From Lutibacter oceani (GTDB taxonomy: Bacteria > Bacteroidota > Bacteroidia > Flavobacteriales > Flavobacteriaceae), in the NCBI RefSeq assembly GCF_003384935.1, contig NZ_QTTQ01000012.1, positions 62,001 to 126,000 on the forward strand: 64,000 nucleotides of DNA, written 5' to 3'. The notes under the pieces were generated by a model that was not told the origin of the DNA, did no database searches, and saw only the letters and a list, made by a program, of their open reading frames with translations. Shown here one piece after another: positions 7,609 to 62,645 of the stretch; position 1 is the first letter of the stretch, and the number at the start of each line of letters is the position of its first letter. Made by a program: the position numbers and the translations under genes.

Positions 7609-7628
7609 TAATTCACCAAAATTAACAT

Positions 7629-8051
7629 ATGTCATTTTCATTTTCTAAACTATTTAATAAGCCAAAAGATCTACCTTCAACTTTTGAGATAATAGATAAA
7701 ATAGATTTTCAAGGGGGTACTAAATATGCTATAAATGAAACAAACGTGGTTTATGCGGATATTGAAGAGCTTGGTGGTTTTCCCTATTTAAAAACTGTAA
7801 TTATTGGGGAAATTGCTGTAAAAATTAAAAGAACAGGATGTACTGTTGCGTTTAACTTCAATAATGAAATTATTAAATTAAATTCCGATAATACAGCCAT
7901 TGAATCAAATAAAATTAAAAACACCAATGTGTTTTATACTGAAATTGATTTTGAATTAAATGAAGAGGATGCTAAAAAAATAAAATCTAATAAATTAAAA
8001 ACTTTAGAATACGATTTTCAAAATAAAATTGTCCCATTTAATCCAATTTAA
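7629..8051 (+). CDS. Hypothetical protein, beta-rich, cytoplasmic
   Basis: A 140-residue protein without signal peptide or membrane segment. The sequence alternates hydrophobic and polar residues as in a small beta-sandwich or barrel (for example YLKTVIIGEIAVKIKRTG). It lies 20 bases after the Cys/His lipoprotein gene and may share its transcript. I do not recognise the family. It converges on bshC, with two bases between the stops. Confidence 0.7.
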   Translation: MSFSFSKLFNKPKDLPSTFEIIDKIDFQGGTKYAINETNVVYADIEELGGFPYLKTVIIGEIAVKIKRTGCTVAFNFNNEIIKLNSDNTAIESNKIKNTNVFYTEIDFELNEEDAKKIKSNKLKTLEYDFQNKIVPFNPI

Positions 8052-55221: not shown

Positions 55222-55974
55222 TTAATCTATCCAATTTTTAAATTCTTTAACACGTTCGCGACTTACAATAATTTCAGCTTCATTATACGATTGAAGAATT
55301 AATTTTAAACGACTATTGGTATATGAAATAATGTCTTTAATTGAATTTATATTTACAAAATATTTACGGCTTACTCTAAAAAATGTTTCTGGCTGTAATT
55401 TTTCTTCAAGCTGTTCTAAAGATTCTTCAAGTAAATAACTTCTATTATCCGTAGTATGTATATGTGTTGATTTATTTTCACTATAAAAACACTCTATTGA
55501 TTCTATTGAAATCATTTTTAAATGCTGCCCTATTTTTACGGTAAATCGTTTTTTATAGCTTTTTTCTGAAGGTGCAATTAAATCTTTAATTTGTTCTAAA
55601 TTTAAACGAGTATTTGAATTAGAATTTACTAAATTTTTATATTGATTTATTGCATTTTCAAGTTCATCAGAATCAATTGGTTTTAATAAATAATCTATAC
55701 TATTTAACTTAAATGCTTTTAATGCATATTCGTCATAGGCAGTTGTAAAAATAATCGCACTTTTAATTTCAACTTCTTCAAAAATTTCAAAAGATAAACC
55801 ATCTGAAAGCTGAATATCTAAAAATAATAAATCTGGATGTTCGTTATTATGAAACCAATTTACAGATTCTTCAACAGAATGTAACATTGTTAAAGGTTCA
55901 ATGTCAAACTCATTTAACATTCTGTTTAACCTTCTGGCAGCAGGTTTTTCATCTTCAATTATTACTACTTTCAT
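55222..55974 (-). CDS. LytTR-family response regulator
   Basis: A 250-residue regulator: receiver domain (about 1-118) with EDE at 7-9, phospho-Asp53 in LLFLDIQLSDG and Lys in LLKPID, then a LytTR DNA-binding domain (about 145-248). It is the partner of the histidine kinase three genes upstream in the same leftward run, which is a LytS-like sensor pair. It follows the 2TM gene at 56043 with 68 bases between. Confidence 0.93.
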   Translation of the reverse strand: MKVVIIEDEKPAARRLNRMLNEFDIEPLTMLHSVEESVNWFHNNEHPDLLFLDIQLSDGLSFEIFEEVEIKSAIIFTTAYDEYALKAFKLNSIDYLLKPIDSDELENAINQYKNLVNSNSNTRLNLEQIKDLIAPSEKSYKKRFTVKIGQHLKMISIESIECFYSENKSTHIHTTDNRSYLLEESLEQLEEKLQPETFFRVSRKYFVNINSIKDIISYTNSRLKLILQSYNEAEIIVSRERVKEFKNWID

Positions 55975-56042
55975 TTTTTTATTTAATTGTTTAATTAAGT
56001 ATTAATTTTTAGTAATACAATTCTTCACTTTTAACTTAAAAC

Positions 56043-56366
56043 TTACTCCCACAAATCCTTTTTATCCTTATCCATCATTTCTTTTATTTTTCGATCTTCC
56101 CAATTAGAACCTAATAAAAAGTTCATTCCGAAAACATTAAAAGCGTGAAAAGCAATTCCTATTCCCCAAAATATAGCTGTATTATAGGTTTGCCATTGCC
56201 ACAACTCTTCGTATCCATTATTTGAAAATACTCTTATAATTATTAAAAATAAATTTACTAAAATATAAACCGCTAGGTGTACATAAAATCCTTTTATTGC
56301 TTTAACTTTCTTTTTTGCTCTAATATATTTTTGCTCTTCTAAATTTGAATTTTCCATCTTATTCAT
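56043..56366 (-). CDS. 2TM domain protein (copy 2)
   Basis: A 107-residue protein of two transmembrane helices (about 27-48 and 62-86) framed by charged ends: KYIRAKKKVKAIKGFYVHL at the start of helix 1 and NWEDRKIKEMMD after helix 2. This is the 2TM module also seen in the next two features. It is downstream of, and overlaps by 8 bases, the gene at 56359, unless the fourth codon (Met) is the start. Role unknown; the module often accompanies LytTR and histidine kinase genes. Confidence 0.8.
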   Translation of the reverse strand: MNKMENSNLEEQKYIRAKKKVKAIKGFYVHLAVYILVNLFLIIIRVFSNNGYEELWQWQTYNTAIFWGIGIAFHAFNVFGMNFLLGSNWEDRKIKEMMDKDKKDLWE

Positions 56367-56658
56367 ATTTTTGATTATTATCTTTATCCATAATTTCCTT
56401 AATCTTTCTTTCCTCCCAGTCTTTCCCTAAAATAATGCTATGTCCAAAAACTCCAAAGGCGTGCAAAACAATACCTATTCCCCAACCCATCATTGGCCAC
56501 CAAAACCAGTAATACCCTGGAGATGTTAGATAATTTATAAAAAATAGAAAAGGAATTACTAAACAATACGCTAATAAATTTGCATAAAAACCTTTAATAT
56601 TATCTACTTTTTTCTTAGCTCGTATATATTTGTCTTCTTCTGTATAATATTTTTTCAT
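56359..56658 (-). CDS. 2TM domain protein (copy 1)
   Basis: A 99-residue protein with the same layout as its neighbour: EEDKYIRAKKKVDNIKGFYA before helix 1, and GKDWEERKIKEIMDKD after helix 2. Together with the kinase fusion, there are three 2TM modules in one operon. Its gene lies 86 bases after the histidine kinase gene. Confidence 0.82.
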   Translation of the reverse strand: MKKYYTEEDKYIRAKKKVDNIKGFYANLLAYCLVIPFLFFINYLTSPGYYWFWWPMMGWGIGIVLHAFGVFGHSIILGKDWEERKIKEIMDKDNNQKYE

Positions 56659-56744
56659 GTTGTTGTTTTTTAAATTTTAAAGGTTATTTAACCAATACTT
56701 ATTTCAATTTTTGATTTTGACTTATAACTTTTAAACTATTTAGT

Positions 56745-58091
56745 TTATTCCCAATATTGTTTGTTATCCTCATTCATATATTCCTTAATTTTTCGCTCTT
56801 CCCAATCTCTTCCTAAAAACGGATTGTAAGCAAAAGCTTTAAATCCCTGAAAAATTAACCCTAGTCCCCAACCCAACATTGGAAACCAAAACCACTGTAT
56901 TGTGTATGGTGTATATTTAAAATAAATAAAAATTAAAAAAGGAATTACAATACAATATGCAATTAGGTTTGAATAAAATCCTTTTATTTCTTCAACGCGC
57001 TCAACTGCACGTAAATATTTGCTGCTTTCTATATTTTCTGATGTTTTCATAATTGTAGTTTTTTGCGTTAATAACGGTAATTTTACCGTGAATTTTTCGA
57101 CTTGTTTTTCAACATATACTTTTTTTAAGGTAATTAAGTTATACCTGTCAATAATATTTTTTAATCCAACTCTTGTTCCTTGTTCAATGGTTGTTTTTGG
57201 GTTGTAATTATTTGTAATTATTAAATACCCATTTTCTTCTTTAATTGTAACTTTTAAAGGATTACCCTCTGAAACCACGTTGTGTTTAATTGTGTTTTCC
57301 AACAATAATTGTAAAGACAACGGAATAATTTTAAATTCTGGATTGCTCGCTTTCTCTGGAATTTCAAATGTTACTGCATCTTCAAAACGCATTTTTAATA
57401 ATTCCATATATGCTTTTGCAAATTGTAATTCTTCATCTAAATCAATTAAATCTTTACTTTTTTGTTCTAAAACATACCTATAAACCTTTGATAATTTTGT
57501 TGTAAACTTTTCGGCTTGCTTTGGATTTTCACTAATAAGAGAAGTTAAAACGTTTAAACTATTAAACAAAAAATGTGGATCTATTTGACTTTTTAAAGAT
57601 TCGTATTTAGCTGTTTCAGTTTTTGCAACTATCTGCTGTTCTTTTACTTTTTTTTCGGTTAATGCTTTATAAAAAAATATTGCATGAAAAATAAGACTTA
57701 CAAACAATGTTACTATTAATCCAAAGAGGTAATAATTCTTAGCATATTCATCATTTAAAAATGCCTCAATAGGTTTTCCTAAAATTACTATTAGCGTTAT
57801 AAATCTTAAAAGGCTTAACCCAAGCATTGTTAAAGCAACAGAACCAAATGCCCCAATTATTAATCGTTTTTGCGAATGATCTTTCCAAGAAAATTTAGTT
57901 TCTAAAAATTTATAGAAAAACCCATTTATTGAACTTAATACAAAAGCATACATAAAATGAATTCCAAATACTTTTAACAATTCATTTACAGGTAAATTAA
58001 AACCTCCATTAAATACTAATCGTTCAAATACAAATAATATAATTGCTATTATTAAAGATATTTTTAACAGGTATTTAATGTTAGTTTTCAT
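56745..58091 (-). CDS. Histidine kinase fused to a C-terminal 2TM domain
   Basis: A 448-residue protein. Residues 1-145 hold about four transmembrane helices (without a clear extracytoplasmic sensor). The His_kinase (LytS-type) domain follows: phospho-His173 in KSQIDPHFLFNSLN and the N-box LLENTIKHN. After the ATPase domain ends (VKLPLL at about 336-341), the frame continues through QKTTIMKTSENIE into a complete 2TM domain (SSKYLRAVERVEEIKGFYSN … GRDWEERKIKEYMN). In the two genes downstream the same module stands alone, so this looks like a fusion. It is the partner of the LytTR regulator. Confidence 0.88.
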   Translation of the reverse strand: MKTNIKYLLKISLIIAIILFVFERLVFNGGFNLPVNELLKVFGIHFMYAFVLSSINGFFYKFLETKFSWKDHSQKRLIIGAFGSVALTMLGLSLLRFITLIVILGKPIEAFLNDEYAKNYYLFGLIVTLFVSLIFHAIFFYKALTEKKVKEQQIVAKTETAKYESLKSQIDPHFLFNSLNVLTSLISENPKQAEKFTTKLSKVYRYVLEQKSKDLIDLDEELQFAKAYMELLKMRFEDAVTFEIPEKASNPEFKIIPLSLQLLLENTIKHNVVSEGNPLKVTIKEENGYLIITNNYNPKTTIEQGTRVGLKNIIDRYNLITLKKVYVEKQVEKFTVKLPLLTQKTTIMKTSENIESSKYLRAVERVEEIKGFYSNLIAYCIVIPFLIFIYFKYTPYTIQWFWFPMLGWGLGLIFQGFKAFAYNPFLGRDWEERKIKEYMNEDNKQYWE

Positions 58092-58553: not shown

Positions 58554-58802
58554 ACTAATTAGTTTTAATGTTAATACTATTTTTTTGACACTTCAAAAGT
58601 GTATATTTTAGCATAAATTGAAAATTTAAACTTCCTGAATTGTATTTTTTTACCGATGAGTTGTAAAATTTAGATTTGAATAGCAAAAAATAAACTACTC
58701 AATTGTAATAAAAATTACTTTATTAAAAACACTAACATTCGTCATCTTTTAAATTAAAACATTTTGTAACTTTATAAAACTTTTTACAAAAACAGGTACA
58801 TT

Positions 58803-60911
58803 ATGAAAATATATGATGATAAACACATTAAGAATGTTGCTTTTGTAGGCGCAAATAAAAGTGGTAAAACTACATTAGCAGAAACAATGCTCTTTGAAGC
58901 TGGATTAGTCAATCGCCGTGGTAGTGTAGAAAATAAAAATACTGTTTCTGACTATCACGAAATTGAGCAAGAAAGAGAAACTTCCATATTTGCCACACCG
59001 CTTCATACTGAATGGCGCAATTACAAAATAAACATTATAGATACTCCTGGATTAGATGATTTCATTGGTGAAATTGCATCAACAATGCGTGTTGCAGATT
59101 CTGTAGTTACCGTTATAAATGCACAACAAGGAGTTGAAGTTGGTACTGAAATTATTTGGAATTATGTAGATCGTTTTTCACTTCCTACAGTATTTGTAAT
59201 TAATCAAATTGATAGCCCAAATGCTGATTTTGATGAAAGCTTTAAAAGTATTGTTGACCTGATTGGAAATAACGCTGTAAAAATACAATACCCTTTAGTA
59301 ATTGATGATGCACAATGTATTATTGATGTACTAAAAATGAAAATGTACAAATTTGGACCGGAAGGTGGAAAACCAGAAAAATTAGAAATCCCTGAAGATC
59401 AAAAAGATATTGCAAACGAACTTCATAATGAATTGGTTGAAAAAGCAGCTGAAAATGATGAAGATTTAATGGAACTTTATTTTGATAAGGGAACTTTAAA
59501 TGAAGATGAAATGCGTGAAGGAATTAAAAAAGGAATGTTAAATCACGAATTATTTCCTGTTTTCTGTGTTTCTGCTTTAAATGACATGGGAACCGGTAGA
59601 TTAATGGGCTTTATTGATAACGTTGCTCCGTCTGCTGCAGATTTAAAACCAGAACAAAGTGTTGAAGGTGAAACTATTGAATGTAAAACTGATGCACCTA
59701 CTTCATTATTTATTTTTAAAACATTGTACGAACCTAATTTAGGTCAAATTAGTTTCTTTAAAGTAAAATCGGGTGAAATAAAACAAAACGATAAATTAGA
59801 GAATTCAAGAAACGAAGAAATTGAAATATTAAACCAGCTTTACATTATGGACGGTAAAAACCGTGAACCTGTAGAAAAATTAAGCGCTGGTGATATTGGT
59901 GCAACTTTAAAATTAAAATATACTGAAACAAATGATACTTTAAGAACTAAAGGATCAAATATAACAATTAAACCTATTAAATTTCCAGAACCTAGAATAA
60001 CTAAATCTGTAAGCGCTGTTGATAAAAATGATGAAGAAAAATTAAATGACGCTCTTAGGAAAATTCACAGTCAGGATCCAACTGTTACCATTAAATATTC
60101 AAAAGAATTAAAACAACAGATTCTTTCTTGTCAAGGTGAATTACATTTAGCAACTATAGATTGGACTTTACAAAAAGTATATGGTATAAAAGCAGTTTTT
60201 GAACAACCTAAAATTGCTTATCGTGAAACAATTCAACGTTCTGCAACCACAAGTTATAAACACAAAAAGCAATCTGGTGGTTCTGGGCAGTTTGGTGAAG
60301 TTCATATTAAAATAGAACCTTGGTATGAAGGAATGCCAGAGCCAGAAGGGTTTAATATAAGAGGAAAAGAAGAAATAGATTTAGATTGGGGTGGAAAACT
60401 TGTATTTTATAACTGTATTGTTGGTGGTGTAATTGATGCTCGTTATTTACCATCTGTTTTAAAAGGGTGTTTAGAAGTTATGGAAGAAGGTCCTTTAACC
60501 GGATCCTATGCAAGAGATATTAGAGTTATGTTGTTTGATGGAAAAATGCATGCTGTAGATTCTAATGATATTTCATTTAAAATTGCAGGTGCTCACGCTT
60601 TTAAATCTGCCTTTTTAAATGCAAAACCAAAACTGTTAGAGCCAATTCAAGAACTTACAGTTAAAGTTCCTGAAGAACTTATGGGAAATGTTATGACTGA
60701 TTTACAATCTAGAAGATCTATTATTTTAGGTATGGATAGTGATGGAAAATACCAAACCATTAAAGCCAAAACTCCTTTAGCTGAAATGTATAAGTATTCA
60801 ACTACCTTACGATCAATTACGCAAGGTAGAGGAAGTTTTAGTACTAAATTTTCAAATTTTGAATTAGTACCAAACAACGTTCAAGAATCTTTAGTAAAAA
60901 TAGAATCTTAA
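58803..60911 (+). CDS. EF-G paralogue (EF-G2 type) without the catalytic His
   Basis: A 702-residue translocase-like GTPase with all five EF-G domains recognisable. Walker A is GANKSGKTT (16-24). The G3 motif is DTPGLDDF at 80-87, where Leu84 replaces the invariant His of DTPGHVDF that activates the hydrolytic water. Switch I is altered (RETSI in place of RGITI), and G4 is NQID instead of NKxD. Domain IV tip and C-terminal regions look normal. A Bacteroides EF-G2 paralogue reported to work without GTP hydrolysis has comparable changes. The canonical EF-G is presumably in the str operon elsewhere. Confidence 0.88.
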   Translation: MKIYDDKHIKNVAFVGANKSGKTTLAETMLFEAGLVNRRGSVENKNTVSDYHEIEQERETSIFATPLHTEWRNYKINIIDTPGLDDFIGEIASTMRVADSVVTVINAQQGVEVGTEIIWNYVDRFSLPTVFVINQIDSPNADFDESFKSIVDLIGNNAVKIQYPLVIDDAQCIIDVLKMKMYKFGPEGGKPEKLEIPEDQKDIANELHNELVEKAAENDEDLMELYFDKGTLNEDEMREGIKKGMLNHELFPVFCVSALNDMGTGRLMGFIDNVAPSAADLKPEQSVEGETIECKTDAPTSLFIFKTLYEPNLGQISFFKVKSGEIKQNDKLENSRNEEIEILNQLYIMDGKNREPVEKLSAGDIGATLKLKYTETNDTLRTKGSNITIKPIKFPEPRITKSVSAVDKNDEEKLNDALRKIHSQDPTVTIKYSKELKQQILSCQGELHLATIDWTLQKVYGIKAVFEQPKIAYRETIQRSATTSYKHKKQSGGSGQFGEVHIKIEPWYEGMPEPEGFNIRGKEEIDLDWGGKLVFYNCIVGGVIDARYLPSVLKGCLEVMEEGPLTGSYARDIRVMLFDGKMHAVDSNDISFKIAGAHAFKSAFLNAKPKLLEPIQELTVKVPEELMGNVMTDLQSRRSIILGMDSDGKYQTIKAKTPLAEMYKYSTTLRSITQGRGSFSTKFSNFELVPNNVQESLVKIES

Positions 60912-60933
60912 TTAAATAAATTTTTATTAAAAT

Positions 60934-60967
60934 AAAGACCCGTTACTTAAAAGTAGCGGGTCTTTTT
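60934..60967 (+). terminator. Terminator of the EF-G paralogue
   Basis: AAAGACCCGTTACTT (60934-60948) pairs with AAGTAGCGGGTCTTT (60951-60965) with a single G-T pair, followed by T-residues. It begins 23 bases after the stop. The rest of the gap to 61343 shows only a promoter box at 61233-61240. Confidence 0.85.
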
Positions 60968-61232
60968 CGTTAGTAGTAAACCGATTAATATCTTATTAAT
61001 TCAATCAATTCTTATAATCTAATTGTTTAGTTGGTTTAGCTCCTATTCCAATAGTAAAGATTTTTAAATATTAATCGATTGCTAATTTAGCATTTATTTG
61101 TTAATTTTTAAAAGAAACTTATTAACAATTAACACATTATATCATTTTTAAATATTTTTTACCTCTATTTATTGCATTTAATGCAATATTAAATATAGAG
61201 TTCATTACAATTTAACTTCAAAGAGAATTACT

Positions 61233-61343: not shown

Positions 61344-61529
61344 ATGAAATTATTATTTATTACGCTAGCTCTATTAGGATTAGGTGTTGCTGGAATCGCA
61401 ATAAAATTATGGGCGAAAAAAGACGGGAAATTTGCTGGAACCTGTGCAAGCCAAAACCCACATTTAAATAAAAATGGTGAGCCTTGTGGCTATTGCGGTA
61501 AAACTGCCGAACAATGTGAAAATAGATAA
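61344..61529 (+). CDS. Small membrane-anchored Cys-rich protein
   Basis: A 61-residue protein: one hydrophobic helix at the N-terminus (about 1-22) and a polar tail with four cysteines, GTCASQ, EPCGYC and QCEN. The CxxC pair (PCGYCG) with flanking Cys suggests a metal or redox site, but no family is recognised. It ends 3 bases before the glycosyltransferase gene and probably shares its transcript. Confidence 0.7.
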   Translation: MKLLFITLALLGLGVAGIAIKLWAKKDGKFAGTCASQNPHLNKNGEPCGYCGKTAEQCENR

Positions 61530-61532
61530 AAT

Positions 61533-62645
61533 ATGCTTGCATATTTATTTATTGCTTTTATAGTAATTATTAGTATTCAATGTATTTACTACCTTTTAAT
61601 TTTTGGGAATTTTGCATTTTCAAAAAGTAGTACCAAACAAACCAAATTTAACCTTCCTGTTTCAGTTATTATTTGTGCTAAAAATGAGGCAAAAAATTTA
61701 ACTGTAAATATTCCTTTTTTCATCAATCAAAATTATCCAAATTTTGAATTGGTTTTAATAAACGACAACTCTTACGATAACACTTTAGAAGTAATTGAGG
61801 AGTTTAAAAAAAAGCATCCTACAATTATTAAAATTGTTGATGTAGCTCCAAATGAACAATTTTGGGGAAGTAAAAAATATGCTCTTACATTAGGAATAAA
61901 AGCTGCTTCAAACGAATATTTACTTTTTTCAGATGCAGATTGCAAACCAATTTCTGAGAATTGGATTCAAAAAATGTCTAATAATTTTAACCAAAAAAAT
62001 CAAATTGTTTTAGGGTATGGAGCCTATAAAAAAGTAAAAAAATCTTTTTTAAATAAACTCATCCGTTTTGAGACTCTTTTAACAGCTATTCAATATTTTT
62101 CATTTGCCAAAATTGGCTTTCCATATATGGGTGTTGGAAGAAATTTAGCGTACACAAAAACTACTTTTTTTGAAGCAAATGGTTTTGTTAACCACATGCA
62201 TCGCATCAAATCCGGTGATGATGATTTATTTATAAACCAAGTTGCAACAAAAAATAATACTGCTTATTCCATTTTAGAAGATAGTTTTACAGAATCTTTA
62301 CCAAAAAAATCTTTTAAAGAATGGATACTTCAAAAAAGAAGACATGTTGCAACAGCTCATTATTACAAAAGAAAACATCAATTTTTACTTGGATTATTTT
62401 ATAGTTCACAAATTCTATTTTGGTTAGTTGGAATTATTCTTTTAAGTTTTCAATTTAATTGGATAACTGTTGTTAGTTTAATAGTATTTAGACAATTAGT
62501 GGTTTATCTTTCAATTGGATTAGCTGCGAAAAAATTTAACGAAATTGACTTAATATTTTTATTACCTTTTTATGAACTATTTTTGATATGCATACAAATG
62601 CTTATCTTTATAAAAAATCTTAAGTCAAAACCCAACCATTGGTAA
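61533..62645 (+). CDS. Membrane glycosyltransferase family 2
   Basis: A 370-residue GT2 enzyme: N-terminal helix (about 3-22), catalytic domain with VSVIICAKNEAKNL, NDNSYDNT (nucleotide-binding Asp region), FSDADCKPIS (metal-binding DxD-like) and LQKRRHVATAHYYKRKHQ (Q/RxxRW-like site), then two to three C-terminal helices. It probably builds surface lipid or polysaccharide. It overlaps the sigma factor gene by 7 bases. Confidence 0.87.
   Translation: MLAYLFIAFIVIISIQCIYYLLIFGNFAFSKSSTKQTKFNLPVSVIICAKNEAKNLTVNIPFFINQNYPNFELVLINDNSYDNTLEVIEEFKKKHPTIIKIVDVAPNEQFWGSKKYALTLGIKAASNEYLLFSDADCKPISENWIQKMSNNFNQKNQIVLGYGAYKKVKKSFLNKLIRFETLLTAIQYFSFAKIGFPYMGVGRNLAYTKTTFFEANGFVNHMHRIKSGDDDLFINQVATKNNTAYSILEDSFTESLPKKSFKEWILQKRRHVATAHYYKRKHQFLLGLFYSSQILFWLVGIILLSFQFNWITVVSLIVFRQLVVYLSIGLAAKKFNEIDLIFLLPFYELFLICIQMLIFIKNLKSKPNHW

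Follow-up and report, generated by a model that had tools for sequence, protein, structure and literature searches.

Lutibacter oceani carries a divergent second elongation factor G gene, fusA2, at positions 58803–60911 on the forward strand of the window (the 64,000-nucleotide stretch analysed here, i.e., positions 62,001 to 126,000 of contig NZ_QTTQ01000012.1). Its product is well supported as a conserved flavobacterial member of the already known EF-G2 family, within the EFG II subfamily of EF-G paralogues. Taken overall, this flavobacterial orthologue of Bacteroides EF-G2 is probably a slow, GTP-sparing translocase of the EFG II type, with little or no GTP hydrolysis. The open reading frame runs from an ATG to a TAA and encodes 702 amino acids spanning domains I–V, with the Pfam models GTP_EFTU, EF-G_D2, EFG_III, EFG_IV, and EFG_C each scoring above cut-off. 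A first-pass annotation had described an EF-G-like reading frame at this position with the motifs DTPGLDDF (Leu84), RETSI, and NQID, all of which are read directly in the sequence. The identity and orthology of the protein, its residue differences, an insert in domain IV, its conservation, the conserved region upstream of the gene, and a terminator downstream were all computed here.

The genome contains one canonical and one divergent EF-G. The canonical fusA (G000:C3, 177272–179356) has the motifs AHIDAGKTT, RGITI, DTPGHVDF, and NKMD and is flanked by rpsG and rpsJ (rpsL-rpsG-fusA-rpsJ-rplC; gene identities judged from the translations). The first-pass annotation had proposed looking for such a gene as a check, and it is found among the ribosomal protein genes. 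The two proteins share the five-domain architecture, whereas the canonical one has the G3 His and the P-loop Asp and no domain IV insert. The neighbours of fusA2 are unrelated to it. The opposite strand encodes a DUF2141 protein and a histidine kinase, and downstream of fusA2 come genes for a glycosyltransferase and an ECF-type sigma factor. By a codon index derived from 24 genes of the ribosomal protein region, fusA2 scores 0.742, as compared with 0.758 for the canonical fusA and a median of 0.712 for 39 window ORFs, among which fusA2 ranks 10th; this bias is too weak for any statement on expression. Elsewhere in this part of the window, on the minus strand, a histidine kinase ORF (56745–58091) ends in a 2TM domain, two small ORFs resemble stand-alone 2TM proteins (56043–56366, confirmed by Pfam, and 56359–56658, by appearance), and a LytTR response regulator (55222–55974) lies in the cluster 55222–58091. 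A 61-residue ORF at 61344–61529 has an N-terminal hydrophobic stretch and C-terminal Cys residues and matches no Pfam family.

The assignment to EF-G2 is carried by the trees. In a 53-row maximum-likelihood tree, made by a quick method and unrooted (no outgroup), the window protein falls inside a group of 36 Bacteroidota EF-G2 rows; this group, 14 canonical EF-G (EFG I) rows, and 3 EFG II rows from Fusobacteria and Clostridia each form one side of a branch, with support of 100, 100, and 97, respectively. The six residues that mark the EFG II subfamily in Margus et al. 2011 (PMC3150367, in excerpt) agree with this placement. All six type-I residues are found in the window protein (Gly16, Leu25, Ser61, Thr307, Gly351, and Lys370 in its own numbering), corresponding to Gly16, Leu25, Ser61, Thr291, Gly333, and Lys352 in 1WDT numbering, where the last three were mapped by local motif without aligning 1WDT itself. 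At every one of the six positions, 12 to 14 of the 14 EFG I rows carry the residue typical of EFG I. Loss of the G2 sequence RGITI (RETSI in the window protein) is likewise an EFG II feature, as is the presence of a second EF-G beside it, according to the same excerpt.

Among the profile models, the exception-type NCBIfam model NF058620 (EFG2_Bacteroid) gave 998.7 bits against a cut-off of 1000, missed by 1.3 bits. This cut-off is passed by 6 of 40 relatives and by 23 of 392 genomes in the phylum sample, where the top five rows (1334–1396 bits) carry a Bacteroides-like DCPG[SA]DDF; membership of the EF-G2 clade rests on the tree rather than on this cut-off. The broader model NF009381 is passed by the fusA2 product, but it does not discriminate because the canonical fusA of the same genome passes it too. 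An identity as canonical EF-G was rejected, with 545.5 bits against the TIGR00484 cut-off of 659.4, Leu84 instead of His, and a separate place in the tree.

The predicted fold agrees with the tree. An AlphaFold model of the protein (mean pLDDT 90.5, pTM 0.83) found as its best Foldseek match 8dmf, the ribosome-bound EF-G2 of Bacteroides thetaiotaomicron (TMq 0.92, 48% identity). A second structural aligner likewise returned only EF-G folds but placed ten other EF-G entries ahead of 8dmf. That the gene encodes an EF-G2 paralogue, as the first-pass annotation had claimed, is therefore borne out by the trees, which set it with Bacteroidota EF-G2 and apart from canonical EF-G, and by the marker residues and Foldseek. 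With the B. thetaiotaomicron protein (BT2167, fusA2; 8dmf has the same sequence as 7uvp) it shares homology over the full length, the lack of a G3 His, a Gln in G4, a Ser in switch I, the domain IV insert, and the company of a canonical fusA. It differs in having Leu rather than Ser at the His site and Lys19 rather than Gly in the P-loop. Chain A of PDB 7uvp bears the molecule name "Tetracycline resistance protein TetQ" on an EF-G2-like sequence (DCPGSDDF); this label looks wrong, as the title of 8dmf says B. thetaiotaomicron EF-G2.

Departures of the G domain from the canonical consensus are seen in four motifs, all read on the forward strand. The G1 P-loop is GANKSGKTT (residues 16–24, 58848–58874; canonical AHIDAGKTT), in which Lys19 replaces the P-loop Asp of the monovalent-cation site; that this Asp is part of the site, and that Gly occurs there in EFG II, had already been noted (Atkinson 2015, in excerpt). 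The G2/switch I motif is RETSI (residues 58–62, 58974–58988; canonical RGITI), in the surroundings ERETSIFAT. The G3/switch II motif is DTPGLDDF (59040–59063), with Leu84, encoded by TTA at 59052–59054, in place of the catalytic His. The G4 motif is NQID (residues 134–137, 59202–59213; canonical NKMD).

These departures recur across the family. The G3 His occurs in 0 of 116 EF-G2 sequences, a set from which the canonical L001 and L037 were excluded, as compared with 14 of 14 EFG I rows; the site is instead occupied by Tyr (51), Leu (36), Thr (15), Ser (6), Phe (5), Ala (2), or Pro (1). A second set of named EF-G2 loci, which partly overlaps the first and may have species in common with it, gave His in 0 of 75, with 5 of 80 named loci (L158, L199, L203, L204, and L206) failing the frame and motif filter and left uncounted. 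The P-loop Asp is present in 3 of the 116 (missing in 113) versus 14 of 14 EFG I rows, and Ser61 is found in 110, the remaining six having Thr. The nucleotide-binding residues Lys22, Thr23, Asp80, and Gly83 are retained in all 116. Retention of these residues together with the absence of His is, at the level of sequence, the pattern expected if nucleotide must bind while fast hydrolysis would be dispensable. In a 135-row tree, from which the cut fragments L034 and L036 were left out, His versus non-His at G3 maps as one change and the letters at the site as 13 changes in all. Because the tree is unrooted, it cannot tell a loss of His in EF-G2 from a gain in EFG I; whichever side changed, the site varies within EF-G2 and never shows a His.

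The first-pass annotation had also taken the missing His to mean that GTP is not hydrolysed, and this step, in contrast to the EF-G2 identity, does not hold: an argument from the His alone is insufficient and not safe. Thermus thermophilus EF-G-2 (PDB 1wdt/2dy1), another EFG II member (30% identical to the window protein in structural alignment), has Tyr at the His site where the window protein has Leu (DAPGYGDF in 1wdt), yet it is reported to bind and hydrolyse GTP and to be active in poly(Phe) synthesis (an excerpt of Margus 2011, PMC3150367, citing Connell). A Tyr occupies this site also in Mycobacterium smegmatis EF-G2, for which ribosome-dependent GTPase activity is reported to be absent (same excerpt), so that one residue goes with opposite outcomes. 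In an excerpt of PMC4532990, Escherichia coli EF-G H91A and H91R retain about 1/7 of the wild-type ribosome-stimulated GTPase activity, H91E is about hundredfold lower, and H91Q differs little from the wild type; that excerpt gives no Leu mutant. These reports speak for a serious though unlikely alternative, namely that in the window protein ribosomal GTP hydrolysis persists, though reduced in rate, and that this EF-G2 is a slower back-up translocase like Thermus EF-G-2; the missing His would then tune the rate and phosphate release without abolishing hydrolysis. However, B. thetaiotaomicron EF-G2, which is the closest orthologue to have been characterised, is reported to be without GTPase activity (title of Han et al. 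2023; a statement in PMC10294740), and two further residues kept by 14 of 14 canonical rows, the P-loop Asp and the G4 Lys, are missing from the window protein.

A further difference lies in domain IV, where an insert at about residues 513–531 (60339–60395, forward strand) makes the window protein 19 residues longer than the canonical EF-G of the same genome and 9 shorter than B. thetaiotaomicron EF-G2. The insert is common to the EF-G2 of the window, B. thetaiotaomicron, and Parabacteroides, and it is absent from the three EFG II proteins examined from Fusobacteria and Clostridia (3/3). Measured against the canonical fusA of the Lutibacter genome, 37 of 44 named Bacteroidales loci are 28 residues longer, 5 match the window protein in being 19 longer, and all 7 named Flavobacteriales loci are 19 longer. 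The insert is the clearest EF-G2-specific insertion in these alignments. In 2023, Han and co-workers reportedly attributed the GTPase loss of B. thetaiotaomicron EF-G2 to a 26-residue region unique to EF-G2. The insert, found at the same place in both proteins, is the likely candidate for this region; if so, the window protein would have a version shorter by 9 residues, and the shortening of a segment said to be tied to GTPase loss counts in favour of hydrolysis at a reduced rate.

Quite unlikely is a second alternative, in which the protein binds the ribosome but is not an elongation translocase in vivo and instead serves stressed cells in recycling, protection, or dormancy. The functions of EFG II proteins do differ, and M. 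smegmatis EF-G2, with Tyr at the His site (DTPGYADF in 9k0z), binds guanine nucleotides without ribosome-dependent GTPase activity (an excerpt of Margus 2011, PMC3150367, citing the original studies); its 70S complex has been solved (9k0z, from its title). The window protein also scores against tetracycline ribosome-protection models, but below their cut-offs, and an identity as a tetracycline ribosomal protection protein was rejected (NCBIfam NF012153, tet_protect, 274.6 bits versus a cut-off of 775). Against such a role, the tip loop of domain IV (HKKQSGG) is intact and does not vary among the 10 rows of one alignment, and the evidence on the orthologue is for translation without GTP hydrolysis: B. 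thetaiotaomicron EF-G2 is described as enabling GTP-independent translation (PMC10294740, in excerpt).

The G4 motif invites a more far-reaching idea. Although NKxD is called conserved in EFG II (Margus 2011, PMC3150367, in excerpt), the G4 Lys is replaced in the window protein and is missing in 74 of the 116 EF-G2 sequences (present in 42), with at least 7 changes between Lys and non-Lys on the 135-row tree. This repeated absence in Bacteroidota EF-G2 seems a detail worth keeping. Because of it, one may conjecture that Bacteroidota EF-G2 gave up both GTP hydrolysis and strict guanine recognition, and that the window protein, with NQID and Lys19, might depend little on GTP for translocation or accept other nucleotides or (p)ppGpp, as a nearly nucleotide-free elongation factor for starved cells; this conjecture is distinctly doubtful.

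Conservation of the gene is extensive within the genus. All 24 other genomes searched within the genus gave a match (24 of 24), and 2 of 15 other genomes of the order have an EF-G2, the third hit there (G038) being canonical; in total, 28 of 40 genomes were tallied, including the own genome and the canonical EF-G of G038. Leu occupies the G3 His site in 26 of 26 EF-G2 loci from this search (the 27th locus, L037, is the canonical EF-G), and since matches occur in all 24 congeners with the same residue, the G-domain substitutions are not sequencing noise. Purifying selection is strong, with pairwise dN of 0.04–0.08 versus dS of 0.7–1.1 and dN/dS of about 0.05–0.07 in a gap-free comparison of the window gene and ten congeners. 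That fusA2 is a decaying, non-functional fusA duplicate, as the departures from G-domain consensus residues might hint, is contradicted by this conservation and has next to no probability, given an intact frame, membership of an old, phylum-wide group, and a conserved upstream footprint and a terminator.

At the scale of the phylum, 152 of 392 sampled genomes have a match at E 1e-175; from these 152 (own included), 89 other loci were read, 29 from the search and 60 fetched. In one genome of the window's own family (G295), the EF-G2 (L071) groups in the tree with that of another family, and the other genomes with the same genus code have no EF-G2 match; horizontal transfer between lineages is the likely explanation of this placement. 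A record titled as a Deltaproteobacteria metagenome-assembled genome (L135) contains an EF-G2 62% identical to the window protein, and this record is probably a binning or naming error.

The region immediately upstream of the gene is conserved as well. In an alignment of 23 congeneric upstream regions, the mean identity to the window is 0.71–0.76 in the three 30-base blocks nearest the start codon and 0.38–0.69 in seven blocks farther upstream, outlining a footprint from about −76 to −1 (58727–58802, forward strand) that is presumably the promoter or regulatory region. Within it, about 70 bases 5′ of the start codon, lies the element CTAACATTCGTCAT (58732–58745, forward strand), which matches CTAACATNNRTCAT, a form found in 22 of the 23 regions and missing only from L031. 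This form has a single copy in the 3.38-Mb genome (its reversed control has 0 copies), and a looser form that does not cover the copy before fusA2 has one genomic occurrence, equal to its control, and is present in 3 of 18 upstream regions outside the genus. As a regulon motif it was rejected, with no regulon inferable from an element unique in the genome whose looser form is at control level; CTAACATTCGTCAT is a possible gene-specific regulatory element. Elsewhere in the window, TTAACATATGTCAT at 7622–7635 is one mismatch from the looser form and overlaps the start of the ORF 7629–8051. A sigma-70 promoter scan gave 17 hits versus 17.6 in shuffles. Downstream, an intrinsic terminator (14-bp stem, 4-base loop, and T tract) lies at 60934–60967 on the forward strand; the fold of 60925–60978 has −23.9 kcal/mol and a z of −6.65, with 0 of 200 shuffles as good. 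It was checked by folding, and the consensus terminator scan does not list this hairpin.

Carbon limitation raises the fusA2 mRNA of B. thetaiotaomicron 238-fold by way of BT4338, which binds a defined site (PMC6989115, in excerpt), and by this analogy a starvation role of the window gene is plausible. Unlike in B. thetaiotaomicron, however, a scan for BT4338 (Cur)-type sites (TATGTTNTANAACATA), allowing up to 3 mismatches, found none between 58554 and 58802. At that threshold the whole window contains 14 hits, below the chance mean of 22, the best (1 mismatch) being at 57461 inside the histidine kinase ORF. Any response of fusA2 to starvation would therefore likely go through another regulator or a site other than the BT4338 type. 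The genus-wide upstream element, which is unlike that of Bacteroides, is a second detail worth keeping.

The favoured reading, the slow GTP-sparing translocase, would by homology work as follows. The fusA2 product would bind GTP, with the P-loop Lys/Thr, DxxG, and NxxD kept, and the ribosome, and it would use binding energy to drive tRNA–mRNA translocation. Loss of the G3 His, the P-loop Asp, and the switch I consensus would make GTP hydrolysis nil or slow, and the EF-G2-specific insert in domain IV would probably contribute. EFG II proteins can take the place of deleted EF-G, though far more slowly (Atkinson 2015, in excerpt, citing earlier work). Beside canonical EF-G, it may then serve as a slow GTP-sparing factor, most likely under energy or carbon shortage. 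Several points stand against this explanation: hydrolysis by Thermus EF-G-2, the sevenfold effect of H91A, the insert shorter by 9 residues, the lack of a BT4338-type site upstream, the missed NF058620 cut-off, and an identity of 48% to the Bacteroides protein.

In the open-licence part of PMC, a search for a flavobacterial fusA2 found nothing; of two broader searches there, one gave no mention of EF-G2 among the 15 matches listed of 2,246, and the other no flavobacterial study, judging by title, among the 15 listed of 54. If the proposed function holds, GTP-sparing translocation would be a common option across Bacteroidota, as the matches in 152 of 392 sampled genomes indicate, rather than a speciality of gut Bacteroides. 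Because its members vary in catalytic residues and insert length, the family would then also offer natural material for testing the part played by GTP hydrolysis in translocation.
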